From Dillenia suffruticosa (Eukaryota; Streptophyta; Magnoliopsida; Dilleniales; Dilleniaceae), in the NCBI GenBank assembly GCA_033439265.1, contig JAVTVX010000016.1:2710501-2774500 (forward strand): 64,000 nt of DNA. Reading direction: 5' to 3'. The position numbers were made by a program, and so were the translations under genes. This document shows, piece by piece, positions 6,493 through 46,324 of the stretch (position 1 is its first letter; every line of letters begins with the position of its first letter). The notes beneath the pieces are model-generated. The model had not been told where the DNA came from. It saw only the letters and a list, made by a program, of their open reading frames with translations, and searched no databases.

Positions 6493-6847
6493 ATGAAGCA
6501 ATCTTACTTCATTGTGATGCTTGCTTTGATTCTTCTGTTCAATCCCAAAGGTATTTCTTTCTTTTAAGGTTTATCGATTCAATATTTAGTTTTCAGATTA
6601 AAAACTTTACTAACTCTTATAGAATTTAGAGGCATCTAATGCTGCAGGAGAAGCATCTACTAATAAGATATGCACTGCGGAGAGACCATGGCCGGGGCCT
6701 TGCCTCAGTGATTATTTTTGCATATTTCAATTCACCAAAGAGTATGGAAAAGGGTACGAGCCAAAGACATGCAAATGTATTCCTGGGAAAACCGATGAGT
6801 CTCATACTTGCAAATGCGAAATTCCTTGCTCCCCATCGCCTGCATAA
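6493..6847 (+). CDS. Secreted cysteine-rich (SCR/defensin-like) peptide A
   Basis: Two exons, 6493-6550 and 6648-6847, with a 97-bp GT-AG intron in phase 1, give 85 residues. Residues 1-20 form a hydrophobic signal peptide (MKQSYFIVMLALILLF). The mature part has eight cysteines at 28, 38, 44, 61, 63, 74, 76 and 80, spaced C-x9-C-x5-C-x16-C-x-C-x10-C-x-C-x3-C. A signal exon followed by one cysteine exon is the usual layout of plant defensin-like and SCR genes, and the two C-x-C pairs plus the final C resemble SCR/SP11. It would be exported and disulfide-bonded; receptor and role are unknown. The start is the only ATG giving a signal peptide in frame with the splice. Compared with D it has I27 rather than V and P58 rather than T. 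It could also be a general defensin-like peptide rather than a true SCR relative. Confidence 0.8.
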
Positions 6848-8330
6848 AGCATGGATCGCTGTTGAAACTTCTATATTTTATGTGCCGCTGTGGTTTTCTT
6901 TTATGGCCATTTTCAGTTAACTGCTTTTCTTTTTTTTTTCTCTCACTCTCATTTCGTGTATTCGGAGTTAGGAGAATGAGTAAAAATCATAGTTTGGTAA
7001 TTGCAGAAAACCTTTCATTTGTTTCGGTCTGTTTTTTTTTTTTTTCAAATTACGTACTAAAATGATTCACATTTCTCAACATAACGAGATTGAAAATGGG
7101 GAAATGAATAAATAAAATTTCAATACTGCCTTCATTAATGTTAAAACTCATCAAATTTCTCAATAAATAAGTATAATTAATTATTATATTAAAAATTATG
7201 ATATTAAAAGTAAAAGCTCATCGTGGGGCTGGCCTACTGAACGCTTTTTTTGGGAGATCAAGGCAGAAACAACACTAAAAGAAAATCCTATAGTTTTGGC
7301 CAACATTATAAATATTTTTTTAAATTTTATAAGATTATTGTTAGGAGACCTTTAAAATTTTATTTCAATCAATTTACCTTCCCATAAATTTTAAAATAAA
7401 AATCAATCGGTCTCAAAAATGAATGGAGTTTTTTTTTTTCATCTGAAGGTGAGTTATTTTCTTTATTTAAGGCTAAATATAGAATATTTGTGAAAAAATT
7501 AGTTGAAAAGGCTATATTTGGTAATTAGTATAGAAGAATGTAAAAATTAAAATCAAAAGAGGTTTAGGAGAAAATGTTGCGTGTCAAAATTTTCATGAAC
7601 ATTTGCTACAACGAATGAGGGAAAAAATAAGTACCTCATACAATTTGAAGGCTAAATTCAAATTTCTTACAAAAATAAGAGGAAAACCCAATACAAATTC
7701 TTAGCATCATCCACCTAAATTTATTTGCCAAAATTTTAAGTGCTAATTAGCTATGTACTTGAAATTCAGGAGGCTATTTAAAATTAGACGAAAGAATAGG
7801 AGATTATTTGTGGTTTTAGACTGCAATTTTTTTTAACATAATTTCTCTAATTCATATAGTTCGTATCTTATTATACACAGAGTTTATATATGGTATACAA
7901 TAGAAGAGTAGGTGTATTGTGAATAATCCGTAGAATCCCTTTCATGTCGTATTAATTAATTTGATTAAAATATTTAGGCCTATTCTTGTTATCACCTAGA
8001 AAAGAATTTTTATTAAGCTGAAAAGGATATTCATATTTTCTTCCATTCAAGTATTTGATGTAAATTTGTTTGTATTCCCTATATATATAAAACGGCGAAG
8101 GCGCTTACTATGCATTTCTTTTGGAACTCTTCTATATGGTCCTCCATATTTTTGGGACTCCGTTATTTTTTTTTCATTCAAGTCGTTGCACTTCCTTTTA
8201 TCTTTTCTTTTTCCCTCTTTTGGTCCTTGCACCTTTTTGACCCGCAACTGCACTTTTTTTTTCAATTCAAGTCTTTGCACGTTTTTTTTACCTCTTTTTT
8301 TTTTTCTGCTTAGGTCTTAGACCTTACACA

Positions 8331-8510
8331 ACCCTAGGATGATGCATCTTAGACATACAATTCTTCTTTTTCTCCTTTTATTTAAAATGTGATTTGGAGA
8401 TTAATTATCCTTTAGGCTTGGACATTGGGTAACTTGTCATCTCAAGATTGGATGAGACCCTCATAGTCTAGATCTATCATTCATAATCTATTCATAATCT
8501 CAAGATTGGA
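8331..8510 (+). repeat. Start of unit B
   Basis: Repeats the opening of unit A (aggcttggacattggg...gatctatcattcataatc) and then breaks into Copia internal sequence. About 150 bp of unit sequence and the Copia 5' LTR are missing at the junction, as also at 21320. Confidence 0.65.
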
Positions 8511-11500
8511 AAGATGCGATTTCAGGTTGTGATATATAGTGTCCGTTGACTCATACGCTCATTTTGGAGTCTATACTCGAATCATTTTAGATTTTTTGAT
8601 TCAAAGGGTGTACATGTGAGAATAAATATCAATAAATTATTAAGATCTCTATTGCTGCATTGAAAACTGTCGTAATAAATCTTAGTAAGAAGAATAAATT
8701 GAATAGTGACAATTGTGAGATTTTATACTTGAAGATTCAATTTGTTCTCAAGGAGCAAGACTTGTATGAGATTGAATGGCATGACATGGTGGGCCCCAGG
8801 GAGGATACCGCACCTTAGGCTAGACAAGATTAGGAGGTCCATCATGAATGGAGAAAAAATGATAGCCAATTTAAGACAATCCTTATCAGTAGCATGCATG
8901 ATGACATAATCTCATTCTATAAGTAGTATCATACGGCTATGTCGGTTTCTCACCCTAAAAGAGCATTATGTTGCTATTTTCAGCTCCTATGGTGAGGATG
9001 CTAAAGAAAAAGACTAATACAACATTTGATATAAATGTCAAGTATGATCGCTGAGTTAAAGAATGCGGATGAGCCCATTTCGGATGAATTTTAGGTACTG
9101 AGTGTGATCCAGGCTTTTACCTGATTCATGAGAGACCATGAAAACCTATCTCATGCATGACAAGAGTATTCGTACTTTCACTGATATGTACAGGTATTAT
9201 GAACTCGAGGAGGAGCACCTGGAAGCAAATAGACCTCACTCGAGTCATGCTTATGCAGCGGAGTCGAGTAAGGGCTCCTATGGCACCAAACAAATAGCAT
9301 AAATATAAGAAAGAAACTCAAGGTCTTGGCAAGAAGAAACCATTTGAGAAATCCGACAACAAGGTACAAAATGCAAGAAGAAGGAACTTGATAAGAGCAA
9401 TGCAGAGTGCTACATCTGAGACAGACTTGGTCATTTCGCTCGTAAGTGTGACAAGTGAAAGGAATGTCCTTGTTCTTTACATGGTTTGAGTTTTGTCTTA
9501 TCTATTATGATACTCATTGATTTCTCTCCTTTGTAGATTGTAAATTCAGGAGTCTCAGATCACATAACTCAAGATAGGAAATCATAAGTGGGGTTCCGCC
9601 GAGTGAATCATCAAGTTAGGAGGATTTACGTGAGAAACGGAACATTTGTTGTCATTAAAGGGATTGATACTTGCAAGTTCGAGTTACAAACTAACCAGAC
9701 TCTATATCTATATGACGTTTTTTATGCTCTGGGTACTAAACGGAACTTGATTTAAGTACTTTGTTTAAAATTGTCTAGGATATACTTTGTCATACATAAA
9801 ATCATTTGTTTTTATGAGATACAATAGCTCTTTGATTTGTTCTGGTTTTACCTATGATAGACTATATGCACTGGATGTCGTTTTTGGCAATATTATTCTT
9901 GTTATTCTCCTATTGCCTTTATATCTAATTGCATAGATAATGATATAAATGTATGGTATAATAGATTTGGACACATAGGGTAAAAGAGAATGAATAAGTT
10001 AGTAACGAATGGTTTGTCGGGCCGGCTAACTATGTTTGGGTTGTCCATATATGCGTTTTACCTAACTAATAAATTTACAAAAAAAAACATTTGACAACGC
10101 AATGAAAGTTGAGACTCCATTGTAGTTGATCTACTCTAATATCTGTGGCCCTATGAGCATAGCTCGAAATAAAGTTGTATATTTTATTACCTTCATAGAC
10201 GATTACACAAGTTTCGATTACGTCTATCTGATCTCGTACAAGTCTGAGGTATCGAAATGTTTCAAGAGATTTATTAACAAGGTTAAAAATTAGTTAGATT
10301 TGAATCTCATCGCCAATAATTATTTGAAAAAACTCAGAGCCATTAAATTTGATCACTTCGCGTGCACATACATTACACACATGGTTTTAAGAATCTCCTT
10401 TACACAAAATACCTTGCTAGATAAGCAAAGCATACTTAGGAAGTTTCATATGAAACAAAAGCATTTTTCTAATACCTACTTGCCTTCCTCAGCTGCAAAT
10501 TAAAAACTTTTCTTTCTTTAATTTAAATATAAAACTAGTCTCGCTCTCGCACAAGAGATTCCACTTACAAAAGGAAAATTGCTCAAAGCAAGAGAAAAAT
10601 AGTTTCCAATAATATATTGATGCAATGCAAAGTGTCCTGTCCTCTTATCAATCACTTTGGTTGAATTTTTGGGTCAAACTCTTTTCAAAACCTCACAATA
10701 CAAACAGCTTCACAGGCCCACTGTTTGTGCAATTTGCACCAAATGACAACGGCAATGTAGAATATAATTTAATGCCATTTCAATCACAATCTTGACTTCT
10801 CATCCAATTATATGCATGTCTAGCTTTGGCTTCTCTCACGATGAAAAAAGATTAGTGGTTGAACCTTGTCGTCTTTGGTGGATATTGAGAAATTTTACGT
10901 TGACATATAACCAAATGCTGCACCAACATTTTATTGGTACATTGGCAATAGTCCAAGAGGTTTATTACGAGACAGCCGACTGTTTTTGTTATTTCCCAGG
11001 AGAATGGAGTAACCGAGAGGAGTAATAGGACTTTCTTGGAGATGTTGAGACCTATGATAGTGTAGGCTAATTTGTCTATCTCCCATTGGGGAAATATTTT
11101 ATTGACTGCTCGTATCTCATTAAAGTTCACAATCAGTACTCATTGAACTTTGGATAGGGGGCAGTCTGACCTTAACCACTTGAAGTCATGGGGTTGTGCT
11201 ATGTATGATCACGATTTCTCATATCCACAAGGCAAGTTAGACTCGCGAGAAAAGAAATATATTTTTATAAGATACTTAGAACACTCCAGGAATTATGTAT
11301 TTTTAGGTGAGCAAACAGACGACACTGTCATTGAGATTGGATTTCATGATTCCACATTCTTTAAGAATGGTTTTCCTAAGAGAGGTAAAATCCATCGGGA
11401 CCTTACCTTCTATGAGATGGATGAATCTAGTAATTTAGGTGAACTCAGCGATGGGATACAAAAATCCATTATGAATCTTGATCCTAGTGGGAGTGATCTA

Positions 11501-13946
11501 TCTAGAGGTGAAGAGGTTTTCTCCCCTCATAGGAGTACCGAGGATGTGTACATAAATGTCCTTTTCTAATTGAGGGTGAAACCCTCATTATGACTCTTGG
11601 GAATGATGAGAAATCTAAAACGGTCCAAAAAACTCTTAAGGGTCCTATAAATGACCGTTGGTTGAAGGCCATGGATGAAAATAAGAAGTTGATGAAAATC
11701 AACGGATCTAGAATCTAATTGATTTGCCTAAGGGTAGAAGAACCATTAAGAACAAGTAGATTCTCAAGATCAAGAGAAAAGTCGATGGATTGGTGGAGAC
11801 GTATATGACACATCTAGTAGCGACGATTATACTCAAACTAAGGGCGTGAACTATCAGGGAGAAAGAGTCCAAATTTATCCTGATTCATTTATTTCTAGCG
11901 ATTGTCATGAGTATGACTCTAAAGTTATACCATATGGATGTAAAAACTATCTTCCTTAACAGAAGTTTGGATGAGGAGATCTACATGAAATACCCTCTAG
12001 GTTCATTTTAGTAGGTTAGGATGATTAGATTTGTGAACTTCAAACGTCGATATACGGTCTAAAGCAGTCATCCAAACGGTGGTATTTAAAATTTTACGAG
12101 GAGGTGATATTTTATGGTTTTATAATGATCGAGGAGAATCATTGTGTCTATCTAATACGTTCTAGTGACTCTTTTGTGATTATGTTCTTATATGTGGTTG
12201 ACATTCTATTGGTCGGAAACAACAGAGAGTATCTGATAATTATTAAAATATAGTTATTATCGAGTTTTGATATGAAAGACATGGGTAAAGTTTAATTCAT
12301 TCTCAAAGTTAAGATCTAGAGAAATTACTCGAGATAGGTGTTGACTCTTTCACAATAGTTCTACATCAGGAAAATTCTTGAGTATTTTGAAATGAGCGAT
12401 TGCAATCCAATAGATTCTCCTATCATTAAAGACGAAGATCTGACTCTTTACATATGCCCTAAAACTCAGGAAGAAATGAAGAATAAGAGTAGACTCTCTT
12501 ATGTCAATGCGATGTGTAGTCTAGTATATACGATAAAACATATATGACCAAATATTTATTTTGCAATCAATCTGGTGAGCAGATATCAATCGAATCCTAG
12601 AAAAGATCACTAGAGAGCAATGAAAAGGATTTTGAGATTTCTCAAGGGGACTGTGGACCTCTCCTTGTATTTATGGAGGAGGTGATTTGTGTTTTATTAG
12701 GTATTCAGATGCCGATTGGGGGTGGCAATCTAAATAGACCCAAATCGACGTCAAGATTTGCTATATTGTTTAATAATAGTACTAATTTTGAAGAAACAAT
12801 AAACAAATCTATATATCTCTATCTACGATAAAGATGAGCTTGTGGCATGCTCAGTGATAATTCAGGAGAGTACTTGGTTTTAAAAATTTCTAGATGATTT
12901 AGGAGTTGTGGCAGATTGTGGGAGGACAATTATGATTTATTGTGATAACCAGGCCACCATTACCAACAACCGAGATCCTAAGTATCACAGTAAAACCAAA
13001 CACATTGATACCAGATATCATTTTGTGAAAGATATCACTGAGAATGGTGTAGTGACGATTAAGTAAACTTTTACACATGGTATAGTGGTTGATCCGTTCA
13101 CCAAATCCATTGTGAAAGATTCCTTTGTGAGACATGAAATCATTAGATTTAGTGTATTTTGACATTTCTCATTATATACTGATTTTAATACTTATTGATA
13201 TATATGACATATGTGCATTATATAGTCACAGGTTTATTTCTTACACTTATTTATTATCAAATATTGTGTAGTGTGTTATGATAAAAGATATGTTAAGCAG
13301 ACGTGGTTGACTCTCACACACGAGTGACCACCTCCAACTCTGAGTGAGCGGGGATGAAACAGTTTCTAGTCATAAGAGGATTTAAGCAATTTATATTCAT
13401 GATGAAATCATATGCGATATAACCGACATGGACATACCTACATCATGTTGCCTGTGAGTAACCAGTTTTGAGATCTTAAATATCACCTACATTTAGTGAT
13501 ATTATTTCTGTAATACTTTTTCTCTGAAATTTCTGAGTAAAGTTTTATGTATAAACTGAATTTCATACCTGCATAATATTAGAGAAATCTGACATATGTC
13601 TTTTTTAGACATGTGGGAATAATATTATGGCACGAGTTTCATACCGCGTGTGATAAAACGATCATAGGATAATGAGAGTTATTATTTGAGACAATAGTGT
13701 GATCATGATCCTTATTTCCAATGTGTGAGATTCGAGATCTATTGGGTGGAATTTCTTATACCCTTATTACAATCGACTGTTTCTAAAAATCTTGATTCAA
13801 TGTTTACTACTTTAGTCTGTTTATTTATAACTCGAAAAAGAAAAACAGCTGAATTGAAATTGATAAATTTGAGTTTGGGAAAATGAAGACCAATCGATAT
13901 TATATCATTGTATAGTATTCACAGGTCGACTTGTTATGTTAATCAT
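8511..13946 (+). mobile_element. Decayed Copia element, internal region (copy 2)
   Basis: Ty1/Copia order is readable on the plus strand with many stops and shifts. A gag-like block lies near 8640-8790. A CCHC zinc knuckle near 9406 has its second cysteine codon changed to TGA. Protease V-N-S-G-V-S-D-H is near 9540. The integrase core is near 10130-10290 and its C-terminal part near 11150-11569 (GKLDSREKKYIFIRY). Reverse transcriptase blocks are near 11640-12210, with the YVDD-type motif altered, and RNase H near 12800-13160. The 5' LTR and leader are missing. About 10298-10955 replaces roughly 90 bp present in copy 3 and matches nothing else in the window. The element cannot encode a working protein. 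Confidence 0.85.
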
Positions 13947-13996
13947 TGTTGGGATTCAAAAATAATAATGAATATATAATAGAGCAAATGATTAGA

Positions 13997-17882: not shown

Positions 17883-18248
17883 ATTATAATAATGAATATA
17901 TAAAATAAAATACGTTGAATTTCCCCTATATTATTGCCACTAATAATTTCTTCTTTTATAATTTTTTAAATACAAACATATTTAGTTTCGTTCTCATAAA
18001 CATTTTATATATCATGGCAAAAAAAAATTTGAAATATTTATTTACCTTTTTTGCTTTTGTTATGGAAATAAGGGCGTTGGATATCTAGGGAAATCCATGA
18101 GCTGATCTATGCGTAAACTTGGTGCCCACCAACCAAAGAGCTGTTTTAACTTTGGCCTGAAACATTCACAATAAGTGTGAAGAATCCTTTTGTTAGGCGT
18201 TGGTATCAATGTTATGTTTTACAAGTGTCAGCTGACCAAATCCTAAAT
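17883..18248 (+). pseudogene. Unit B remnant: peptide-gene distal promoter only
   Basis: Matches 5990-6350 of unit A and 26510-26870 of unit C, including the block reading ctagggaaatccatgagctgat and the run to gaccaaatcctaaatt. It then departs into unrelated DNA about 60 bp before the TATA position. No exon of copy B is found, so this unit lost its coding part by deletion or replacement. Confidence 0.75.
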
Positions 18249-18888
18249 TCAACTTGAAAAAAAATGGAGGAAGAGGAGATTGTTGAGAAAATTGGAAAGA
18301 GTGTGTTCCGACCATTTTATTAAAAAATTAAGAAAAAATTTTCAAAATAAAATATACGATTAAATTTTTAAAAGGAAAATTAAGATTTAATTTTTTTTTT
18401 AAAAAAAAGTAATGCAAATGTAATGTAAATGCAAGAAAATAAAGATGCAAAAAATTAAATGTACCGACTTGACGGATATCGTAGTTATTTTTCATAAAAT
18501 CTTGAATTTGAGCTCCCAATCTTGAAATCTTGCCAAATCTTGATCAATGTTGAAGGTCATGAAAAATTTATAATTCTCCTTTCTCCACCCAAATCGTTCT
18601 GTAGCAAGACTACCAGGAAAGTTTCCAGGTAAGAGGTGAAGTTTGTCTATTCTCACTTAATTATCTCTTTCTTTCGACAATTAGTTGCCCCTAGACAGAA
18701 CTTTTCTAGACATACTATACCGTTGTATACGGAGTCAATGATTTTCACAAAAATTTAAAGTACAAATTTGAGAATATATTTAATGAAAATGTGTTTAATG
18801 AATAAAATGATAGAAATAAAGATAATTGTGGAAATGTAGATAATTATGGAAATGATAATAGAAATAGTGTAAAAATTGGTGGAAATAG

Positions 18889-19260: not shown

Positions 19261-19400
19261 GAATGTGGATATTTTGTCAAATGGTATAGAGATTTTGTTG
19301 TGGAAATATCTTATGGACCAAAATAATCTCAAAATAAACTGTTTTATAACTGTTGGGAGGGGTAAAATTGAAAAAAAAAAATTCAAAAAAAAAATGGAGT

Positions 19401-27004: not shown

Positions 27005-27368
27005 ATGAAAACATCTTACTTCATTGTGATCCTTGCTTTGATTCTTCTGTTCAATCCCAAAGGTATTTCTTTCTTTTGACGCTTATTGATGCAATGTTTA
27101 GTTTTCGGATTAAAAACTTAGCTAAATTTTCAGACTCTTATAGAATTTAGAGACATCTACTGCTGCAGGAGAAGCATCTACTAACAAGGTATGCACTGCG
27201 GAGAGACCATGGCCGGGGCCTTGCCTCAGTGATTATTTTTGCATATTTCAATTCACAAAAGAGTATGGAAAAGGGTACGAGCCAAAGACATGCAAATGTA
27301 TTCCTGGGAAAACCGATGAGTCTCATACTTGCAAATGCGAAATTCCTTGCTCCCCATCGCCTGCATAA
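27005..27368 (+). CDS. Secreted cysteine-rich (SCR/defensin-like) peptide C
   Basis: Exons 27005-27062 and 27169-27368, with a 106-bp phase-1 GT-AG intron, give 85 residues. The signal peptide differs from copy A at position 3 (T for Q) and position 9 (I for M). The mature part matches copy A except V27 for I27, and all eight cysteines are kept with the same spacing. The intron holds about 10 extra bases relative to A and D. A Copia LTR ends about 495 bp upstream of the ATG, so any regulatory element beyond that point has been replaced by transposon DNA; the proximal promoter is intact. Exported disulfide-rich signalling or defence peptide by inference. Confidence 0.8.
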
Positions 27369-29422: not shown

Positions 29423-29439
29423 CACTACAAAAAAAGCAG

Positions 29440-31510
29440 ATTTTAGCGACGAAATTTAGCAACGAGAAATATTCGTCACAAATCTGCAACAAATTTAGCA
29501 ACAAAAAATGTTATCGTCGCCAATTAGCCATAATTTTAGCAACAAAAATATTTTCGTCTCAAATTTAGCAACTAAAAACTTTTTCGTTACAAAAATCGCC
29601 GCAAATTTGTGACGAAAATTTTTTGAAGCACAATTCGTTGCAAATTTGCGACGAAAAAATAACGTTACTAAATTTGCAACGAATTTAAAAATTCGTGGCA
29701 AAATTTGCCACAAATTTCAAATTCGTCCCTAAATTTGCGACGAATCTGAAATTCGTCCCTAAATTTGAGATGAATATAAAATTCGTCGCTAAATTCGGAA
29801 AAAAAAAAAATTGTCCCAAAATATTGGGACGAACTTCTCAATTGCGTCCCTAAATTTGGGACGAAAATGAATTTGTCCCTAAATTTGCGACGAATTCCTA
29901 AATTCGTTGCAAAGTTAGCGACGAATATTTATATTCGTCGCAACAAATTCGATTATTTGTTGTTAAATTTGTTGCAAATGAATGAGAAATATATTATTTC
30001 TGGCAAATTTCGTCGCTAAAATTAATTTTTCAGTAATTAGAAACATTTTCTTGTATGATAAACATTTTCTAATATAAAAAATGATTTGAAAACGGTGTTA
30101 TGCACCGTTTTCGCGTATAAAAATCTTAAAATGTTCAAAAGATTTTAAATAAAATCTTTCATTCATTGTCTATTTATAGAAAAGAATAATAATATAGTAT
30201 AATCTTTTAAATTGTTACAAAAAATTATTATTAGTATATTCATTTTTTATTCATTATCTGTTTAATTTTCCATTTCTAGCACTAATAACTCTATTTTATA
30301 AATTTGTTTAAATATTCGATTAACTAAATCAAGAGTTAAAGCAGAAATACTTGTTAAGTAATAATCAATACATTGAATATTTTTTTATAATTATATCATA
30401 GTACGCCAATATTATTAATAGTTTATCGATTTAGTTTCTATTTTAGTGTATTCAAAGAGTTATATATTAGAAACCATAAGTATTGTTGCAAAAATTGTTG
30501 TAAATTGTAAAGAAAATAATTATTTATCGTTAAATTTACTACAAATTGCTACAAAAACATATATTTATCAGAAATTTAGCGATGAAACCATTCTTTCGTC
30601 GTAGATTTTAGCGACAAAAAAAATTTTTCGTCCCCGATTCAGGGACGAAAAAAAAATTTCGTCCCTGATGTTGGAAAAAAAATTCGAAGGAAAACAATTT
30701 TCGTCCCTGATTCTAGGACGAAAAAATTTTTTCGTCCCTGATTCAGGGACGAAAAAGTTTTTCGTTCCAGAATCAGGGACGAATTTTGGGACAAAAAGTT
30801 TTTTGAAGCAAAATTCAAAATATAATGGAATGGATTTCGGGAAAATCAGTGGGCTACTCAAGTCTGTCTTTGGGAGGAACATTGTAGTGTATCATTAATT
30901 TCTTCCACTAAACTTAAATTCAATTTTGAATTTGTTTATTTAGTAAAATTTTTGAAAATACTATTAAAAATTGAAGTTTATATTTTTGTAACATAATTGA
31001 AGGGTACTAGTGAGTAAGAAAAAAATCGCCGAAAAAATTAAAAACCTATAAGTAAATGCGATATTTTCGTTCCGTTTTGATTTTGTTATTAGTATAATTT
31101 TGTTTTAAACTAATTAAACAAATAAAATATATTTAAAACGTTTCCGTCGATAATTGATCGTTGATAATATCAAACATAAAATTGAGTTGTGATATCAAGT
31201 GATATATTTAAAACGTTTCCGTTGATAATTGATCGTTGATAAAATCAAACATAAAATTGAGTTGTGATATCAAGTGAGATAATTTTTGTTGTACCTTGTT
31301 CCACCATCCCCAAAAAACGATTTCGTTGCTGAATCAGGGTCGAAAAAAAATTTCGTCCCTGAATCAGCCAGAACAAAATTTTGGTCCCTGAATCAGGGAC
31401 GAAAAAAAATTTCGTCCCTGAATCAGGGATGAAAAAAAAATTTCGTCCCTAAATCAGCGAGAACAAAAATTTGGTCCCTGAATCAGGGACGAAAAAAATT
31501 TTCGTCCCTC
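29440..31510. repeat. CACTA left subterminal repeats
   Basis: Dense direct and inverted copies of gcgacgaattt-like words at 29440-30020. Arrays of cgtccctgaatcagggacgaaa, itself an inverted repeat, follow at about 30590-30790 and 31315-31510. In En/Spm, subterminal repeats bind the TNPA protein (established for the maize element). Between them, 30020-30590 and 30880-31310 are AT-rich and show no gene. Confidence 0.75.
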
Positions 31511-31784
31511 TCTCTCTCTCTCTCTTTCTCACAGGTTCATCTCATTTGTGAAGAGTAGCCGCGAAGGGGTACTGCGAAGGGATGGCGGAAGGGATGCCGG
31601 ATCTACGATAGTGTTAGGTAATCTTTCTCTCTGTTTCTCTGTCTTGGCCGTAGATGGCAGATCCGGCGGCCAGCTGCTGGATCTGAGTTGCAGAAAGCAG
31701 ATCGGACTGCCAGCCACCGGATCTGAGATTCTGAAGGCAGATCCATGTGCGGCTGAGGTGCGCGAAGGCGCCGCCTCCCTCGCA

Positions 31785-32265
31785 CTACCCAGGTGCGCGA
31801 AGGGGCCGTCGCCCCTTCGCTACCCAGACGCGAAAAGGGGCCGCTGTCCCCTTTGCGCCTCCGCCACGCGAATCGGCAGCAGGGCCTGCGTGGCCCAGAC
31901 GCGGAAAGGTGCCGCGCAGCCCCTGTGCGGCCCTGCTGCGCGAAGGTGCCGTGCAGCCCCTGCGCGGCCCTGCTGCGCGAAGGGGCCGCCGCCCCTTCGA
32001 GGCCCAAACACGCGAAGGGGCCGCTGTCCCCTTTGTGCCTCCGCCGCGCGAAGGGGCAGCAACGGCTGCGCGGTCCAGACGAACCTTTGTGTTGCGCAGC
32101 CCCTGCGCGGCCCTGCTATGCGAAGGGGACACGGCCCCTTCGAGGCCCAGACGGGCAATGGGCCCGCTGGCCCCTTTGCGCCTCCGCCGCGCGAAGGGGC
32201 AGCAGTAGCTGTGCGGCCCAGACGCGGGAAGGTCCCGCGCAGCCCCTTCGCGGCCCTGCTGCCAT
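31785..32265. repeat. GC-rich hairpin array upstream of tnp2
   Basis: Repeated units built on GCGAAGGGGC...GCCCCTTCGC; the first perfect hairpin is 31797-31820 and variants recur near 31975, 32120 and 32190. Long frames open on both strands here because the repeat lacks stops. It sits about 0.7 kb before the transposase, preceded by a CT-run at 31509, and may be part of the leader. Confidence 0.8.
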
Positions 32266-32952
32266 TGATGGGCTCGGCCCAGCCCATTGGGACCGGCCAG
32301 TCCAAAAATTTAATGTAATTGATTTTTTTTTTTTAACTTTTTTAGAAATGTTATTTAAAAAAATGTTTTTATAATATTGTTTTAATAATATATTAGTTAT
32401 TTATAAATCTTTTTTATGTGTTAGGTTTTGCGATTCTCGAATATTTGTATTGGAAGCTGTTGCTGGTGTTGATATCGGACTCTATCGGTGAGTTATTAAT
32501 TGGTGGTGAAAAATGTTTTATTATGTACTGTAATGATGTTAAAATGCAATTTATAGTAAATTTTATGTGATAATTGATTATGAGAATTATTAGATTAACA
32601 ATACTCAGCAATTTATATTAAATCTTATATCGATTTGTTAAATAATCAATGTTGTTAAATGTTTAATATTTGATAATTTATTTAATTTTATGATAATATT
32701 TAATGTTATTGTAATAATGTAGTTAATTTGTTTCATATTAATTAAGTTTATAATATTATTTATTATTATATTAAATTTTTGTGAAATTATGCTTTGTATT
32801 AATGATGATTTGAGTTTTGTACAATTAACGTTATTATTTATTGTTATATGAATTTAGTTTGAAATATTGATGATATTACTTTTGATGATTTAGTAGTTTT
32901 GTTTGTAGTTCTTATTTATATTTAAAAAATTTTAAATTTGGAGACAGGGAAA

Positions 32953-35900
32953 ATGCAGAACGAAAGAAGTTGGATGTATAAGAAGAACTTATTTGATCGT
33001 CGGGGTTTAACTGATGAATTTATTTTTGGATTGGAGTAATTTTTAAATTTTGTTTGTACTCAAGTTGATTTTATGGATGGGAATAAGCTAAGGTGTCCGT
33101 GTAGAAGGTGTCGGAATGGTAAATTTTTACAGTATGATAAAGTTAGGGAACATCTTTGTAGAGTTAGTTTTACCCCGAATTACTATAATTGGACATGTCA
33201 TGGTGAACCATTCATTTCTGATGAGGAGTTTGGACGAAATAGACAATTCTCAGTTAGTGGGGATCGGAGTTATTATGAACAATTGAATCCGTATCAGAGG
33301 ATGGTAATTGATGTAGTGGGTCCGAATTTTGTTCCCGATCCAAGCGCTGCAAGTTCTAGTTTTGCTCTAACATTTGAATATGGGTATACTAGTTATGCAT
33401 CACCATTGGAGTAGGTAGAAGTAGTAGGTGTTGATGAAAATGTGTCAAATGAATCATCTCTCCAATTTCAGGAAGTCTTAAGAGCTGCAGATAAATCTTT
33501 GTGGGCTGGTTGTGATAGCCATACTAAACTATCTCTAACCGCAAGATTGTTGAATGTCAAGGCAGAGTATAATGTGTCTGAGAATTGTTTTAATGATTTT
33601 GTTCAAGTTATTGGAGAAATATTGTCGCGTGATCATATTATGCCCAATGACTTCTATAGTATGAAAAGGCTTGTGAAAGAATTAGGTCTTCCAGTACAGA
33701 GAATAAATGTTTACAGAGATGCTTGTATGCTATTTTGGGGAGATGATAAAGAAGCAGATTTTTGTAAATTCTGTAATCAAAGTAGATACAAGAGTTCTCG
33801 GAGGTCGGGTCGTAATCAGCAGCGTAAATCATACAGACAAATGTTTTATTTGCCTTTAACTCCTAGGTTACAAAGACTTTATGCATCTGAGACCACTGCT
33901 AAACACATGACCTGGCATGCAAATCATGAAACAGAAGAGGGGTTAATGTATCATCCTTCAGATGCAGAAGCGTGGAAATATTTTAATAGAACTTATCCTG
34001 AGTTCGCGAGAGAGACTCGAAATATTAGATTAGGTCTCTGTGCTGATGGATTTGCTCCATTTGGCAAATCAGGAAGAAATTATTCATGTTGGCCAGTTAT
34101 CTTAACTCCGTATAATCTTCCACCCGGTATGTGTATGAAGACACCGTATATATTTTTAACATTGGTCGTGCTTGGCCCGCAAAATCTAAAGAAATTAATA
34201 GATGTTTACATGCAACCATTGATTGCGGAGTTGAAACAACTATGGGATGAAGGTGTTCCTACATATGATGTTCATAGTAATCAGATGTTTGTAATGAAGG
34301 CTGCTCTTCTTTGGACCATTAATGATTTTCCAGCTATGGTATGTTATCGGGATGGAGTACCGCTGGGATTTTAGGATGTCCAATTTGTTTGGAGAGATCA
34401 AAATCATTCAGATTGAAATATGGGAAGAAAGCGAGTTATTTTGATTGTCATAGACAATTTTTACCGTTAAGTCATAAATTCAGAAGAAATAAAGAAGAAT
34501 TCACTAAGAATAGAATTGAAAGAACACCTCCTCCACTGAGATTAACCGGTGAACAAATTTGGCATAGAGTCATTAACTTTCCATCTGTTATTGAAGAGCC
34601 ACATGGTACAACATATGGCTATGGACATTCACAAAAATGGACTAAACGAAATTTATTTTGGGATTTACCATATTGGAAGACTCAATTGGTTCATCATAAT
34701 CTCGATGTAATGCATATCGAGAAGAATGTCTTTGATAATCTGATAAATACAGTGATGGATATTACTGAGAAAACGAAAGACAACTTGAATGCAAGAAAAG
34801 ATATGCGACTCCTTTGAAAACGACCCACTCTTGATGTCAATGAAAGTAGTAGGGGACCAAAACCGAAAGTAGTTTATACATTGAATAAGGATCAGAGACG
34901 GCTTATTTGTGAATGGTTGAAATCATTGAGATTTTCTGATGGTTATGTCTCAAATCTTGAAAGATGTCGATTTAAAGGAATGTAAATTAATTGGTTCGAA
35001 AAGTCATGATTGTCATATATTTATGGAAAGACTAATTTCTATTGCTTTTAAGGAACTCTTACCGAATTTTGTTTGGGGTGCCATTACGGAGTTAAGCATT
35101 TTTCTTCATGATATTTGCTCGACAGTGTTGAAACATTCACACATGGAGATGTTAGAGAGAGAGATTCCAATCATTTTGTGTAATTTAGAAAAGATATTTC
35201 CACCGTCATTTTTTGATTCTATGGAATATCTTTTGGTTCACTTGCCATATGAGGCGAAAGTTGGAGGTCCTGTCTAATTTAGATGGATGTATCCATTTGA
35301 AAGGTAAGTTTTTCATCTTTTTTTCTTCGTTATGAAGGCATATAAATTTTGTAATTTCATTACATATAATTTTCTAAAACATTTTGTTTTATTACAATTA
35401 GATTCCTATATCATTTGAAGAAGAAAGTTAAAAATAAGGCACGTGTTGAATCCTCTATTGTCAATGCATATATTGTGGAGAAAGTAACAACGTTTGCATC
35501 ATATTATTTTGAGCCTCACGTTCAGTACAAGAGGCGGAGAGCAGGAAGAAATGATGATGGTCCTATTGATCCCAATTTGAATTCATTCTCAATTTTTAAC
35601 TACCTTGGTCGACCAAGTGGATCATGTAAGCGTAGATATTTAACTGATCAAAAATGGCAGGCAGCTCACACATATATTTTACTGAACTGTCCATAAGTGA
35701 CACCATTTTTCGAGTAAGTGTATAGTTTTTATTTTATGTGTTTCTTATGTCGTACATTATGTGTGTTAAAATTTATTTCCTTTGATGGTAGAATTTTCCA
35801 AAACGTATATTCTCAACTTTCGAGACATGAGTTTGATCGTTACTGCGATGAAGAATTTGCACCATGGTTCAAAAAATATGTAAGTAGACTATCAATTATT

Positions 35901-36713
35901 TAAATATTTATGTTAAAACATATTAACATATTTATTTAACTTTAGGTCCATGATAATCAAGCTAAACTTCAGCAAGAATTGTTAATCCATCTGTCATGGG
36001 GTCCAAAAGCAATGGTACGAACTTGGCCATCCTATTTTATAAACGGGTATAATTTTCATACTGAAAAATATAGAGTGGGCAAAACGAAAATGAATAGTGG
36101 AGTTTGTGTTCAGTCATCCAATGATGGTGGAGGTCAAAATGATTTTTATGGTTTGTTAGATGAAATCGTTGAGGTAGAGTACCCTGGTCTAGCATTACGG
36201 GTTGTTTTATTTATGTGTCGCTGGTTTGACCCTGTGAAAGGGATGAAAGTGCATCCACAGTTTAATTTGGTTGAAATAAATCATAAGAAATTGTATAAAA
36301 GATATGAACCATTTGTGTTGGCACAACAAGCGATTCAAGTATTTTATGCTTCATATCCTAGTTTGAAACGTGACAAAATTGATTGGTGGGCTGTTTTTAA
36401 AACGAAAGCACAGAAAAAAATTGAAGAACATTGGGAAGAGACAGCATATCAACAAGAGCAAGTTGTCAATACAATTCAGACCGAGAAATATAATATTCCA
36501 ACGTTACGAGATCCTAGCAGAGTAGTGATAGATGTGGATGCAAGTGAAATTCATGAAAAATATGATGAAGAATCTAATTTTAAGACAAATGATGAGGATG
36601 AGGATGAGGATTCTGATGAGGATGAGGAAGAGGATGATGAAAATGATGTTGAAGAGTCTAATTTTGAGACACAGGATGACGATGAGGATAATAATGACGA
36701 TTTTGATTTTTGA
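32953..36713 (+). pseudogene. CACTA tnp2-type transposase, inactivated
   Basis: The order is a transposase-associated N-terminal domain (32953-33200, with CPCRRC), the TNP2 transposase core (about 33840-34810), the DUF4218 region (about 34970-35690) and a DUF4216-type region with an acidic Asp/Glu tail (about 35945-36713). Introns are supported at 35304-35400, 35711-35791 and about 35879-35944. Damage: TAA at 33037, TAG at 33412, a one-base loss near 34335, TGA at 34815, a shift near 34965, TAA at 35275 and TAA at 35694. Several stops fit C-to-T decay of CAA or CGA codons. It would have cut and rejoined the element ends in the nucleus. The catalytic residues cannot be assigned with certainty by eye. 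Confidence 0.85.
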
Positions 36714-36978
36714 TGACGGGTAAATTTTATTCTCTTCATATAATAAAAATCGGATATTTATCTTGATATATGATAATATATTTTTTTTAAGTGGGTAAGT
36801 TAATCGACACGTATAATTTGCAAATTTCTTTACTCAATTTCTTGTTTATTTACTGTCTCATTCTTAAATTTATATATTGAATTTGTTAATATACTATCTT
36901 TTTTTTTCTATAGGTCGTTAGAGAAAATTTCTTCACATATTGGTACCTTGTTTCGTCGGAACTAATTTATCAAATTAA

Positions 36979-38920
36979 ATATGGTAAGTTTATTCATGTT
37001 CTTCATTATATATATGATGATTATGCAATTTACATTTTTTTGTTTAAAATGTATTATGGTTGACAGTTTCGACGTGGCGGCCATAGACGCAATTCTGATG
37101 GAAATTCACGCTCTTCACCATCGCAGTCTGCTTCGGCAGCTTCGCAATCGCATTCCCTTGCCCGCGATGTACCTTTGCCTCCCCCTTCTGTTGCAGGCCC
37201 TTCACATTCTCAACACATCGCTAGCAATGTACCTTCTGCAGTCCTTTCGGTGGAACAGTCGTATGCCGATAGAGAAGACAATCGAGAGTTAATAACCCCT
37301 TATGGAGATTCGTAAGTACTAAATTTTAAATTTATAGATGTATTATTTCTTTTATTTATGAAATAATTTCTTCTTTTAACTATCATATTTATTTAACATT
37401 GTTTGTTTGAAACTTTACGATAGATTTACAAATTCTGTACATGTTATTCACGAGTTGAATAGAATTGTGAATAATCATTGGGGAGGGGCTTCGATGTTTT
37501 ACACAAGCACTTTGGATGAAACAAAAGAACTATGGTGGAACGAGTTCAAGGTAAGTTATCCCAATCAGTTTATATATGAAATTAAGTTAATAGCTTTATA
37601 AGTTATTGCTTTCTTTCCATTGCAACGAGTATTCACTTGGGACGAGACTGAAGAGTTGGAAGTAAGAAGGATTTTCAAGAAAAAATGTGGTGATCACATT
37701 CGACACGTTTTAAATCATGCAAAGAGACATGTAAAAAAGCCCAACTGCATCACCGAGTAAAATTGGGGCAGGATTCTGAATTTTTGGGAATCGGAGGAGA
37801 GCCAACGAAGGAGTGAGCAAAATAAAAAAAATCGAGCTTATAATTCAGGGGAATCGTCTGCGACGTATGCCGGAGGCTCGATCACTATCGGTGAATATAG
37901 AAATAGATTGGTAATTTTATACAAATATTAATTTTTTTTATCTAATTTAAAGTATATCATTATTTCTAATAGTGTTTTTTTTATTTTAGGCAAAGGAAAT
38001 GGGGACCGAGCCTTCATTCATAGAGACTTTCACGCGCACATTTCAAAAAAAAGACAAGACTTGGAGCAGGGAGAGGGCTAGAGCAATTAAGGTTTGTAAT
38101 TTCAAATTTTCCAATTACTTTATGTACATTTTCAATGTTGATATGAACATTTTATGTTGAGCATATCATAACAATGTAGGAAGATGAATTCTTTATGTTA
38201 GTCTCTCTCAAGTTTATTTTTATTGTTGATTTGATTCTTTGATTTCTAATGAATTACTTGCTAGAGATTCTCTTTTATTTTTTTTTCCCTAAAATTTCAA
38301 CTTATTCAATGTTAATATAAATGTTCATAATTTAGATCCTATATGGAGTCATGATTTATGTTACAAAATCTTTTATTTTCCTTGATTATGTGTTTGTATT
38401 ATAATGTTATTGTAAATTTATTTTAATTTTTCTCATGACAATGTAGGAGAAATATGATGAGCTAACATGTAGAAGTTCGAGTGCTAGTGATGATGCTGGC
38501 GGATCTGAGCCATCTGTTGATAACATGAATACATGGCTCGAGGTGACTGGTGGACGAAAAGGGAGTAGAGTAGTTGGGTTAGGTTTTTTGAGCAGAACAT
38601 ACAAAATCGCCGGTTTATCTTCTTCCACACCACCAGCAGTTAGAGCACAAATAAATCAATTGAATGAAGAGGTGAGCCATTTGAAGGACTTGCTACTGCA
38701 AAGAGATCAGACATTCAGTGAACTTCAAGCAAAGCACATGCAAGAATTGCACGAGGTCCGCACGCAGCAAATGTTAATCATGCAGCATCTTCAGTTAGTC
38801 TCCACTCCAAATCAGATTCCCCCTTCTATTTCTCCTCCTGATAATGCTTGCGATGGTGATGAGGGTGATGATTTCTTTGATGATGATGATGATGATGGTG
38901 ATGGTGGAGGTCATACTTGA
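36979..38920 (+). pseudogene. Ptta/En/Spm-family (TNPA-like) second CACTA gene
   Basis: The first exon is just ATG (36979-36981), followed by GTAAGT; the second begins FRRGGHRRNSDG, rich in Ser and Pro. Later exons contain W-D-E-T-E-E-L-E, G-T-E-P-S-F-I-E-T-F and a helical stretch with S-F-L-rich then acidic tail (38860-38918). This pattern is that of the plant transposase family PF03004, whose members bind the subterminal repeats. An in-frame TAA near 37758 (after N-C-I-T-E) interrupts one exon. The last exon, about 38447-38920, is open for 131 codons from its internal Met and ends in a run of Asp. Confidence 0.7.
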
Positions 38921-39179
38921 AATTGTAAACTGTTATGTTACTGTTACATTGATTTTTTTTTAATGTATGGTTATTGATATTTCGATATTTAGTTTTGATG
39001 TTGCTTTTTTATTTGATATTATAAATATGATTGCTTGTTAAATTTTTAATTTATTGATCTTATTGAATAGGTAGTTATAATTATGAGTATAGATTGTTTA
39101 AATTTTATATTAAAAATGATTTGGATGATAATATTGTTGATGAGGTTGGGTGAGCAGGCAAATTTGTCCAAATATGTTA

Positions 39180-39963
39180 ATAAAATTTGTATTCGTTGTA
39201 AAATATATATTCGTGACAAATTTTGTTCCTAAAAATAATGCTCATGGTGATATAAATTTTGATTTGCGACGAATTTTGCAATGAAAAACATTCGTCGCCG
39301 ATTTGCAACAAATTATTTTTCGTTGGTGATTTGCGATAAAAAACTTATTCGTTGCAAAATTAGCAACAAATATTGTTTCGTCGCAAAAATTTTGGACGAA
39401 ATAAGATTCATCACAATTTTGCGACGAAATAATATTCGTCGCACCTTTTGCGACGAAATAGTATTCGTCGCACCTTTTGCGACGAAATAATATTCGTCGC
39501 TAAATTTGCGACGACTGTTTTTCGTCGCAACTTTTTCGACGAATTTAGCAACGAATTACTTTTCGTCGCAAAGTTTGCCATAAATTTTTTTTCGTTGGAA
39601 ATTTTGCGACGAAAAATGTATTTGTCGCAAAATTTGCAACGAAAAAGTAATTCGTCGCTAAGTTTGCGACGAAATTGGTTTTGTTGCAGAATTTGCGACG
39701 AATATTATATTAGTGGCAGATTTGCGACGAATATTTTTTTCGTCGCAAATGTTGTTGCAAATTTGCGATGAATTTCGCATCATATAAATATTTGTTGCAA
39801 ATTGTTGCGATGAATAATTAATTTTTCGTCACAAATTTTTGCGACAACTTATTAGCAACGAAAAAATATTTGTTGCAAAATTCGTCGCAAATGTGTTTTG
39901 CGACAAATTTTTCTTACAATTTCGTCCCAAATTTTGTCGCAAAAATTGTTTTTCTTTGTTGTG
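39180..39963. repeat. CACTA right subterminal repeats
   Basis: Some 25 or more copies of gcgacgaa / ttcgtcgc words in both orientations, spaced about 20-35 bp, up to the right terminus. They mirror the left end at 29440-30020. Confidence 0.85.
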
Positions 39964-40176: not shown

Positions 40177-40387
40177 ACCAACGTGGGTTGAATCAAATGG
40201 ATGTGGGTTGAGTACCCTTAAGCATGATCGAGATTTGACTCCCGCTAAGAGTATCGGACCCTCATGTGTATGAAGCGTTCCCCATTGGGAGACACACCCT
40301 CCGAAAGGAGTCACTGCAGTGGTCGGTCCGGATTAGTCGGGGCGAAACCCCAGATATCGGGCGGTGTCCAAGACATGGTACAAAAAA
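40177..40387 (+). mobile_element. tRNA-like SINE, copy 2
   Basis: Same insertion as 5379-5588, with the target duplication decayed on the left (aatgcgaaaaag) and intact on the right. The B box is changed (GAGATTTGACTCC), so this copy is probably not transcribed. Units A and D thus descend from one unit that already held the SINE. Confidence 0.7.
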
Positions 40388-41200
40388 AATGCAAAAGAGT
40401 TCCTTTGTAGCATCCTATCGAAGTTTGGTGGAAACAAACAATTGGCAATCCAAACACGGCCCTAAAATGATGCATCTTAGACCTACAATTCTTCTTTTTC
40501 TCCTTTTATTTTAAACATGTTTTGGAGATTAACTATCCTTTAGGCTTGGACATTGGGTAACTTGTCATCTCAAGATTGGATGAATCTAGATCTGTTATTC
40601 ATAATCTATTAAATAACTTAAGGGCTATCATTTTTCTAAATATGATTTGCAAACTATATATCAATTGTCTTCTTAGTTTTCTTTAATGCAAGGCCAGTTT
40701 CGTATGATCTGTTGCCCTTTCCATGTGTTATCATGGTTTTAAGTTTTATAATTATACCAAAAAAAAAAAAAAAAACTTAACCCTTTAGTTATTATAAGGA
40801 ACATATAAGATAAAATACCTCAAATTTCCCCTCTATTATTGCAACTATAATTTCTTCTTTTATTAATTTTTAAATACAAACATATTTAATTTCATTGTCA
40901 TAAATATTCTATATATCATGACAAAAAAATTTGAAATATTTATTTACTTTTTGCATTTGTTATGGAAATAAGGGCGTTGGGTATCTAGGGAAATCCATGA
41001 GCTGATTTATGGGAAAACTTGGAGCCCACCATCCAAGAAGCTGTTTTAACTTTGGCCCGAATCCTTCAAAATTGGTGTGAAGAATCCTTTTGTTAGGTGT
41101 TGGTGTCAGTTTTATGTTCTACAAGTGTCAGGTGACCAAATCCTAAATTATTACGACCAAATCCTAAATTTATTTCCAGATTTTGATGGCTTCCTATGCA

Positions 41201-41207
41201 TATATAT
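41201..41207 (+). promoter_or_regulatory. Putative TATA box of gene D
   Basis: TATATAT, 78 bases before the ATG, in the conserved promoter block shared with A, C and E. Confidence 0.5.
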
Positions 41208-41284
41208 TCGCCATCGCATAGCCCTATACTTGCAACATCATATTCTTGGTATAAGGAGAAAACAAGTGTACAGCAAAATCAACC

Positions 41285-41638
41285 ATGAAGCAATCTTACT
41301 TCATTGTGATGCTTGCTTTGATTCTTCTGTTCAATCCCAAAGGTATTTCTTTCTTTTGAGGTTTATCGATTCAATATTTAGTTTTCGGATTAAAAACTTT
41401 ACTAACTCTTAGAGAATTTAGAGGATCTACTGCTGCAGGAGAAGCATCTACTAATAAGGTATGCACTGCGGAGAGACCATGGCCGGGGCCTTGCCTCAGT
41501 GATTATTTTTGCATATTTCAATTCACAAAAGAGTATGGAAAAGGGTACGAGACAAAGACATGCAAATGTATTCCTGGGAAAACCGATGAGTCTCATACTT
41601 GCAAATGCGAAATTCCTTGTTCCCCATCGCCTGCATAA
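41285..41638 (+). CDS. Secreted cysteine-rich (SCR/defensin-like) peptide D
   Basis: Exons 41285-41342 and 41439-41638, with a 96-bp phase-1 intron, give 85 residues. The signal peptide is identical to copy A. The mature part differs from A at V27 and T58; the eight cysteines and their spacing are unchanged. Two more differences in exon 2 are silent, so four of 200 bases differ from A. Promoter and TATA block are intact and no LTR lies in the promoter. Expected to be secreted and disulfide-bonded; target unknown. Together with A and C it forms a dispersed family within 35 kb. Confidence 0.8.
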
Positions 41639-43679
41639 AGCATGGGTCGCTGTTGAAGCTTATATATTTTATGTGCCTCTGTGGTTTTCTTTTATCGCCA
41701 TTTTCAGTTAAATGCTCTTTTTTTTCTCCTCATTTTGTGTATTCGGAGTTAGGAGAATGAGTAAAAATCATAGTTTGGTAATTGCAGAAAACCTTTCATT
41801 TGTTTCGTTCTTTTTTTTTTTTTAATTACATACTAAAATGATTCACATTTCTAAATAAAATTCCAATACTGCCTTGATTAATGTTAAAAGAATAATTGTA
41901 ATGAAAAAAAAATTCTGATAAAAAGGAAACTGAAAAAAACTCATAAAATTTCTCAATGAATAAGTATAATTAATTATTATATTAAAAAATTATGATATTA
42001 AAAGTAAAAACTCACCGTGGGGCTGGCCTACTGATCGCTGAAATCAGCCATGATTTTGGGAATCAAAAGAAGGCAAGCATTGGGCGGCTTACAGGGGGAG
42101 ATGCGGGCTGTGGGCATTGAGCACGACCATATTTTCTCTTCTATCCCACCGGGGGCATGAGAGGATACCATATACCATTACTGTAAACTGTAAAGTGGTA
42201 CTATATGGTTATAATATTTTTGGAACAAGTTATATTAATTTATAATTGAAAAATATTCTATGGTATCTTAATAATAGTAACAATTTTGACGATATGATAA
42301 ATGATTAATTATCATATCGTTTTTAAGGTAGTAGCAGAGCGAGCGGCGAGAGGGGTTACTGTCGTATGAAATTCTCAACAAAGAATTTATAGTATGAATT
42401 TTTTATAAATTAAGATCCTTAAAACTCATTTTTGTTTATTCTAAAATTATAATTTATCCTTTAAAATTTAAGAAAAAATTTTGCTCCTTAAAAGTTTCCA
42501 ATTGAAAATATTTTAAAACCAACCAAACATCCCTTTATACCATCTTTCTTGAAGGCCACATCAGATGCACTTTTGTTGCCAGGATTTCTCCCCCTCCTCT
42601 ACAAAATCCTGCAACAGATCAAGGCAGAAAATCCTATAGTTTTGGCCAATATTATAAATATTTTCTTAAATTTTATAAGATTATTGTTAGGAGACCTTTA
42701 AAATTTTATTTCAATCAATTTACCTCCCCATAAATTTTAAAATAAAAATCAATCGGACTCAAAAATGAATGGAGTTTTTTTTTTTCATCTGAAGGTGAGT
42801 TATTTTCTTTATTTAAGGCTAAATATAGAATATTTGTGAAAAAATTAGTTGAAAAGGCTAAATTTGGTAATTAGTATAGAAGAATGTAAAAATTAAAATC
42901 AAAAATGGTTTAGGAGAAAATGTTGCTTGTCAAAATTTTCATGAACATTTGCTACAACGAATGACGGAAAAAAATAAGTACCTCATACAATTTGAAGGCT
43001 AAATTCAAATTTCTTACAAAAATAAGAGGAAAACCCAATACAAATTCTTAGCATCATCCACCTAAATTTATTTCCCAAAATTTTAAGTGCTAATTAGCTA
43101 TGTACTTGAAATTCAGGGGGCTATTTAAAATTAGACGAAAGAATAGGAGATTATTTGTGGTTTTAGACTGTAATTTTTTTAGTATAATTTCTCTAATTCA
43201 TATAGTTGGTATCTTATTACACACAGAGTTTATATATGTACAACAGAAGAGTAGGTGTATTGTGAATAATCCCTAGAATCCCTTTCATGTCGTATTAATT
43301 AATTTGATTAAAATATTTAGACCTATTCAAAAATTTAGTAATCACCTGGGAAAGAATTTTTATTAAGCTAAAAAGGGTATTCATATTTTGTTCCATTCAA
43401 GTATTTGATGTAAATTTGTTTGTATTCCCTATATATATAAAACGCCGAAGGTGCTTACTATGCATTTCTTTTGGGACGCCTCTATATGGTCCTCTCATAT
43501 TTTTGGGACTCCGTTAATTTTTTTTTCCATTCAAGTCGTTGCACTTCCTTTTATCTTTTCTTTTTCCCCCTTTTGGTCCTTGCACCTTTTTGACCCGCAA
43601 CTGCACTTTATTTTTTTTTCAATTCAAGTCTTTACACTTTTTTTTATCCTTTTTTTTCCGCTTAGGTCTTAGACCTTAC

Positions 43680-44016
43680 ACAACCCTAGGATGATGCATC
43701 TTAGACATACAATTCTTCTTTTTCTCCTTTTATTTAAAACGTGATTTGGAGATTAATTATCCTTTAGGCTTGGACATTGGGTAACTTGTCATCGCAAGAT
43801 AGGATGAGACCCTCGTAGTCTAGATCTACTATTCATAATCTATTAAAGAACTTAAGGGCTGTCGTTTTTCTAAATATGATTTGCAAACTATATATCAATC
43901 ATCTTCTTAGTTTTCTTTATTGCAAGGCCAGTTTCATACGATATTTTGCCCTTTTCAAGTGTAATCATGGTTATAAATTTTACAATTACACAAAAAAAAA
44001 AAAACTTAACCCATTA
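43680..44016 (+). repeat. Start of unit E
   Basis: Repeats the opening of unit A (5655-5985) through the A-run and cttaaccc, then joins a 5'-truncated Copia LTR. Here the distal promoter of gene E is separated from its proximal part by transposon DNA. Confidence 0.65.
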
Positions 44017-45590: not shown

Positions 45591-45602
45591 TTGATATCAG
45601 AG
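45591..45602 (+). other. Copia primer-binding site
   Basis: TTGATATCAGAG directly follows the LTR end and is one or two changes from TGGTATCAGAG, the usual plant Copia primer site complementary to initiator methionine tRNA. It marks the LTR to its left as a 5' LTR. Confidence 0.7.
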
Positions 45603-45866
45603 TTTTGTTGCATTTATTAAAAAAAATTGAAAAATTTTGAATATAGAATGTGTAGGGTAAAATTTAGGGTTCGGATCACGAATGAGTTTCGTGAATTCGA
45701 AGATACCATGAGAATACTCATAGTTCAATGATTATGAAAATTATTTTTGTTAAATTTTTTGAATATGTTTAAACAATGAAAAGTTTGGTCAAACTTTGCG
45801 ACCATACGAAATTCAAAACCTTAGATTTATCACAGAAACAATATCACTAAATGTAGTCTAGTATAT
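45603..45866 (+). mobile_element. Copia leader fragment
   Basis: Sequence following the primer-binding site, ended by unit E promoter sequence (tatttgaaatatttatttac). The rest of the element is gone, so an internal deletion joined the leader to the unit. Confidence 0.6.
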
Positions 45867-46324
45867 GCAATGTATTTGAAATATTTATTTACTTTTTATG
45901 CTTTTGTTCTGGAAATAAGGGCGTTGGGTATCTAGGGAAATCCATGAGCTGATCTATGGGTAAATTTGGTGCCCACCAACCAAGGAGCTGTTTTAACTTT
46001 GGCCCGAAACATTCACAATAAGTGTGAAGAATCCTTTTTGTTAGCCGTTGATATCTGTGTTATGTTTTACAAGTGTCAGCTGACCCAATCCTAAATTATT
46101 ATGACCGAATCCTAAATTTATTTCCAGATTTTGGTGGCTTCCCATGCATATATATTCGCCATCGCATAGCCCTATACTTGCAATATCATATTCTTGGTAT
46201 AAGGAGAAAAACAAGCGTACAGCAAAATCAACCATGAAGCCATCTTACTTCATTGTGATTCTTGCTTTGATTCTTCTGTTCAATCCCAAAGGTATTTCTT
46301 TCTTTTGACGTTTATTGATGCAAT
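45867..46324 (+). repeat. Unit E proximal promoter and exon 1
   Basis: Matches unit A from 6140 and unit C from 26660 up to the start of the intron, where a CACTA element has inserted. Promoter block and TATATAT (46149-46155) are intact. Confidence 0.75.
46234..46291 (+). pseudogene. Peptide gene E, exon 1 only
   Basis: Intact signal-peptide exon (MKPSYFIVILALILLF) with its GT donor. The CACTA terminus CACTACAAAAC enters at 46325, 33 bases into the intron. No cysteine exon follows within the window. Exon 2 may lie beyond the right edge if the transposon and anything nested in it extend that far, or it may be lost. If transcribed, the message would run into the transposon. Confidence 0.75.

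Follow-up and report, generated by a model that had tools for sequence, protein, structure and literature searches.

The window analysed here is a 64,000-nucleotide stretch of the Dillenia suffruticosa genome (C16:2710501-2774500, where C16 is contig JAVTVX010000016.1), and it carries a tandem cluster of small genes that, judged by profile and predicted fold, encode eight-cysteine peptides of the SCRL (SCR-like) type. The genome searched is a 596-Mb assembly of 37 contigs, and this single assembly, representing one haplotype, is the basis of all the copy comparisons. An earlier note had described five units in the window. These were found again, within one base, and the three intact two-exon genes among them (U1, U3 and U4) were re-derived. 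Each begins with a putative signal exon of 58 nt. A phase-1 intron follows (97, 106 and 96 nt, respectively), which starts with GTATTT and ends with CTGCAG (GT...AG), and then a cysteine exon of 200 nt; each gene encodes 85 residues in an open frame. The cysteine spacing is identical in the three genes and is the one originally proposed, C-x9-C-x5-C-x16-C-x-C-x10-C-x-C-x3-C (gaps 9-5-16-1-10-1-3). The N-terminus is hydrophobic by sequence and forms a putative signal peptide. The gene models use predicted splice sites only, without cDNA, and were built for U1, U3, U4, U5, U6, V1 (C16:3.93 Mb), W1 (C34:21.92 Mb), X1 (C16:3.91 Mb) and Y1 (C2:14.84 Mb).

The cluster is larger than the five units first described and has at least seven (U0-U6), with U0 and U6 outside the window; a whole-genome DNA search gave 13 matches. 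U2 consists of homologous upstream DNA only, as the earlier note had it. U5 had been taken for a lone exon 1. The exon is where it was placed, but exon 2 is intact 24.9 kb further on, outside the window (C16:2781790-2781987). The gene is interrupted by a CACTA-type transposon of 24,890 bp with a 3-bp target duplication, AAT, on both sides, and it resumes at C16:2781715, right after ...TTTTGTAGTG. U5 is thus a gene with a 24,890-bp CACTA element in its intron. In U0 (C16:2709596) exon 2 is retained, and the surrounding 9.9 kb yielded no exon 1 for it. U6 (C16:2797208) is a divergent intact copy, complete with 78 residues and 78% identity to U1. Exon 2 is open in all six array copies that keep it (U0, U1, U3, U4, U5 and U6).

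The assignment to the SCR/SCRL family has held up. The Pfam SCRL profile (PF06876, curated cut-off 23 bits) scored above cut-off in eight of nine conceptual proteins, including all three intact window proteins (Table 1), and in none of seven shuffles; U6 was the one protein not listed. The remaining scores were 26.4 bits for U5, 23.8 for V1, 28.4 for W1, 28.2 for X1 and 25.8 for Y1. Written as a regular expression, the SCRL cysteine pattern matched six times in the 223,403 bases of window and flanks that were scanned for motifs; all six matches were array units, three of them in the window. It matched nowhere in the reversed sequences, and is therefore not a product of chance. Exon 1 has 58 or 70 nt and the intron is in phase 1 in all seven models compared (U1, U3, U4, U5, U6, V1 and W1). 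The widest SCRL pattern tabulated for three species in PMC9856046 is CX(9-10)CX(7-10)CX(13-23)CXCX(10-27)CXCX(3-7)C, and six of the seven cysteine gaps of the array genes fall within these ranges, whereas the gap between cysteines 2 and 3 is 5 versus the tabulated 7-10.

The mature peptide is predicted to adopt an SCR-like strand-helix-strand-strand fold, and the best fold match of the model was Brassica S9-SP11/SCR (5GYY), with a probability of 1.00, about 20% identity in the structural alignment and modest scores. A PDB sequence search with the peptide gave no match, and a PDB search with a four-member profile returned only six P2X receptor chains (E 2.1-2.5), so that it is the Pfam profile and the predicted fold that tie the peptide to SP11. 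Related peptide classes were also compared. The Gamma-thionin profile of plant defensins was listed for none of the nine proteins. The classical CS-alpha-beta motif of plant defensins includes C-x3-C, and U1 reads CIFQF there. The table in PMC9856046 has C-XXX-C in its PCP-A/DEFL row and gives the PCP-B pattern as CXXXXCX(7-8)CXCCX(6-8)CX(6)CXXXC; no CXCC occurs in U1, U3, U4, U5, U6, V1 and W1 or in the members compared from contigs C2 and C5. On sequence and modelled structure, the cluster is one of SCRL-type genes (SCR-like, defensin superfamily) and a sound new member of that known family.

Exon 2 differs at 3/200 positions between U1 and U3, 4/200 between U1 and U4 and 3/200 between U3 and U4, compared with 71/983, 40/944 and 93/985 non-coding differences, respectively. 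Two of the three pairs tested show it to be better conserved than intron and flanking DNA (Fisher p 0.0011 for U1-U3 and 2.6e-5 for U3-U4; U1-U4, at 0.16, is not significant). Gene-conversion homogenisation would yield the same picture within the array, and the comparison with U6 is cleaner than the within-array pairs. For the mature region of U1 and U6 the nonsynonymous divergence (dN) is 0.108 and the synonymous divergence (dS) 0.608, a ratio of 0.18 (Fisher p 4.2e-5 on rounded counts); for U1 and V1 the ratio is 0.36 (p 0.005). The mature exon has been kept similar, by purifying selection or by homogenisation, and has not diversified. Upstream of the ATG, a block of some 100 bp with a TATA-like sequence can be aligned in the nine copies compared (U1 and eight others), and it is kept even in relatives whose distal upstream DNA no longer aligns clearly. 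Transcribed genes look like this, although the likeness does not prove transcription.

It could be argued that the units are dead repeats, pieces of genes that were copied passively with local duplications and transposons and yield no product. Two of the five window units are broken (U2 and U5), U0 is without exon 1, and several relatives elsewhere bear stops or frameshifts. However, such fragments would have to account for the open frame of every exon 2 that the array keeps, for an exon that, in two pairs out of three, has changed less than its intron and flanks, for the low U1-U6 ratio, and for an upstream block still alignable in U6 and V1 at synonymous divergences from U1 of 0.43 and 0.54. 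Dead repeats are improbable on this evidence.

The transposon-rich, duplicated setting that had been described was borne out, and the tandem array has been eroded by CACTA elements. The U1 unit sits in a larger duplicated block (5208-8492) common to 40003-43844. The CACTA element between U3 and U4 is about 10.5 kb long. It has the left terminus CACTACAAAA, an imperfect right terminus CTTTGTTGTG and subterminal repeats of the TTCGTCGC type; the neighbouring repeat copy has the empty site, near 20890. With one mismatch allowed, the CACTACAAAA pattern was found 9 times versus 7.07 expected, and is thus not rarer than chance alone would make it; the ends were assigned from the target duplications, the empty site and the tnp2 genes, not from the frequency of this pattern. 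The spacer that follows the U1 block is common to a second place in the window (Table 1), so the apparent Copia-like element in it probably predates the duplication of the unit. Short G+C-rich tandem repeats, which give rise to long but spurious open frames, lie at 4693-4868, 31760-32260, 49675-49831 and 55646-55842, the last three inside CACTA elements. Near the left terminus of the U5 transposon, at 46546-47008, a 49-bp unit is repeated in tandem (9.4 copies). In the window, neither Rfam at its gathering scores nor a tRNA scan gave a match.

Table 1. Coordinates of the features in the window (position 1 is the first base of the window)
Feature	Position	Strand	Remarks
U1 whole homologous unit	5994..7245	+	upstream, gene, 3' flank
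U1 conserved upstream block	6385..6492	+	putative core promoter / 5' leader; TATA-like TATATATT near 6409
U1 exon 1	6493..6550	+	putative signal peptide, MKQSYFIVMLALILLFNPK plus first base of split Gly codon; donor GTATTT at 6551
U1 intron	6551..6647	+	97 nt, phase 1, GT...CTGCAG
U1 exon 2	6648..6847	+	eight-cysteine mature peptide, TAA stop; Pfam SCRL 26.7 bits
Spacer with apparent degenerate Copia-like retroelement	8573..13994	+	common to 21318-25757; retroviral polymerase SH3-like domain 11147-11569, rest by eye
U2	17884..18249	+	upstream region only; homology stops at 18249, then about 1.96 kb of other sequence
U3 exon 1	27005..27062	+	
U3 exon 2	27169..27368	+	one residue differs from U1 exon 2, I27V; Pfam SCRL 27.3 bits
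CACTA-type transposon between U3 and U4	29423..39963	+	tnp2 33442-34817, DUF4216 35979-36713, target duplication ATA
U4 exon 1	41285..41342	+	
U4 exon 2	41439..41638	+	versus U1: I27V, P58T; Pfam SCRL 25.0 bits
U5 upstream, exon 1 (46234-46291) and first 33 nt of intron	45875..46324	+	intron cut at 46325 by transposon terminus
CACTA-type transposon in U5 intron 1	46325..64000 in window, on to C16:2781714	-	left terminus CACTACAAAA at 46325; tnp2 52741-53904 minus strand

The earlier note had let its reading depend on homologues outside the repeat, and these exist elsewhere on C16 and on C34, C5 and C2, the four contigs that hold the mature-peptide matches among the 19 listed in a protein search of the genome. 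The tally of relatives is incomplete, as the PF06876 profile search of the genome listed six places and missed the window's own genes. W1 has only 36% identity to U1 and cysteine gaps of 9-5-16-1-9-1-3. Y1 and three members on C5 (C5:14.11-14.12 Mb) form a second SCRL subfamily with gaps of 9-8-16-1-8-1-3, and the three C5 cysteine exons are open and have candidate signal exons. The gap between cysteines 5 and 6 is below the tabulated 10 in W1 (9) and in the relatives on C2 and C5 (8), and in the latter the gap between cysteines 2 and 3 is 8. X2 (C16:3926915) was kept unclassified because its donor site differs.

The earlier note had also suggested a small-ligand locus, perhaps for recognition or defence, and the recognition part was not supported. 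In an S locus of the SRK type, the ligand gene must have an S-domain receptor kinase as its neighbour. The genome has at least 114 matches to PF00954 (S_locus_glycop), counts for such large families being lower bounds, and none of the 114 listed is on C16 or C34. A scan of the window and flanks for a kinase catalytic-loop motif, for which that DNA has no positive control, found none; the S-domain class was the one searched for by profile. Of the flank reading frames, ten were run against Pfam and seven matched, including a choline transporter, a serine carboxypeptidase, a MADS-box factor, a ROH1-like protein and a coiled-coil nucleotide-binding leucine-rich-repeat (CC-NB-LRR) protein. The last is a resistance-type open frame of 1,376 codons (C16:2644829-2648956). 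The frame at C16:2701276-2701692 resembles by eye a fragment of the plastid RNA polymerase beta-subunit and is perhaps plastid DNA inserted in the nucleus. The contigs of the second subfamily also carry S-domain receptor clusters, which are distant: over 10 Mb separates the clusters on C2 (2.1-2.3 Mb) and on C5 (3.6-3.8 Mb) from the SCRL relatives of the respective contig.

The lack of a listed S-domain match on the contig and of a kinase motif, together with copies that are nearly identical and conserved rather than hypervariable, argues against a Brassica-like self-incompatibility determinant, and the cluster very probably does not supply the male determinant of an S locus of the SRK type. 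That it serves as a self-incompatibility ligand locus, with SCR/SP11 function in D. suffruticosa, is very unlikely, the relatives being scattered over four contigs as well. A small probability is kept for it, since SCRL genes can be recruited as such ligands, as described for Leavenworthia Lal2/SCRL (PMC3653793); the S-locus protein AB2 of Ipomoea is comparable, with eight cysteines and predicted secretion (PMC13033167), and the fold match to S9-SP11 points the same way. Slimmer still is the chance that this locus, or an allelic form of it carried by other individuals, provides the male partner in a self-recognition system whose receptor lies outside the S-domain class. If true, SCR-type ligands would have been recruited for mating recognition independently of SRK.

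What function do these peptides have? We consider it probable that the tandem SCRL cluster encodes diffusible extracellular ligands, most likely laid on pollen by the anther, with the copies serving dosage and not an SRK-type determinant. The product would be secreted and its signal peptide removed, and the mature peptide, presumably locked by four disulfides that would pair C1-C8, C2-C5, C3-C6 and C4-C7 as in the defensin/SCR type, would diffuse outside the cell to a cell-surface receptor, by analogy and as a best guess in the stigma or pistil. The several near-identical copies would then give dosage, not new specificities. PMC9856046 reports 34 SCRLs in the pollen coats of three Brassicaceae species, including 10 of the 28 known in A. 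thaliana, and 15 SCRL genes specific to the mature anther. The cotton gene SCRL11 is listed among heat-responsive pollen-specific genes (PMC8954629); this passage was all that turned up on SCRL genes outside the Brassicaceae, which is no claim that they are unreported elsewhere. By analogy with these Arabidopsis, Brassica and cotton SCRLs, a pollen- or anther-borne ligand is the best guess. The main rival is that the peptides are antimicrobial, or serve seed or root defence, and are not signalling ligands. They belong to the same defensin superfamily, V1 has a below-cut-off match to the Pfam 'AtDEF-like' defensin-like family (E 0.004, 17.9 bits, cut-off 25), and the CC-NB-LRR frame lies about 60 kb upstream of U0. 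A defence role is distinctly less likely than the pollen-ligand role, and likelier than dead repeats.

Comparison with known systems places the array closest to its own family. The Brassicaceae SCRLs (PF06876 / CRP0830) share with it the profile match, the signal and cysteine exons, eight cysteines, two C-x-C pairs and a clustered arrangement, but the array copies are almost identical, not diversified, and the gaps depart from the tabulated ranges as described above. The Brassica pollen S determinant SCR/SP11 gave the best match to the predicted fold and is alike in its eight cysteines and in being a small two-part peptide gene; here, in contrast, none of the listed S-domain matches is on the contig, the one haplotype shows no hypervariability, there is more than one copy, and the PDB search gave no sequence match to SP11. 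The Leavenworthia SCRL is likewise a two-exon, eight-cysteine defensin-like gene, but is described as lying 2-10 kb from its receptor gene and having highly variable alleles (PMC3653793), neither of which was found in the array. Ipomoea AB2, also small, predicted to be secreted and with eight cysteines, is reported to be an S-determinant with stigma candidates as its partners (PMC13033167), a pairing not found for the array. The AtLURE1 (CRP810_1) pollen-tube attractants form a similarly young defensin-like cluster, with one pseudogene among six (PMC3525529). They have six cysteines, unlike the array peptides, belong to another CRP group and are made by synergid cells.

With exons of 58 and 200 nt, these genes are easily missed by gene finders, as the earlier note had pointed out and as is said of the class in PMC3924332. 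The cluster offers a clean, testable set, with near-identical and conserved paralogues, one of them split by a 25-kb intronic transposon, and a divergent intact neighbour. If the genes are expressed in pollen, they would be an example of SCRL ligands that are conserved for dosage, not diversified, and that work away from any S-domain receptor.
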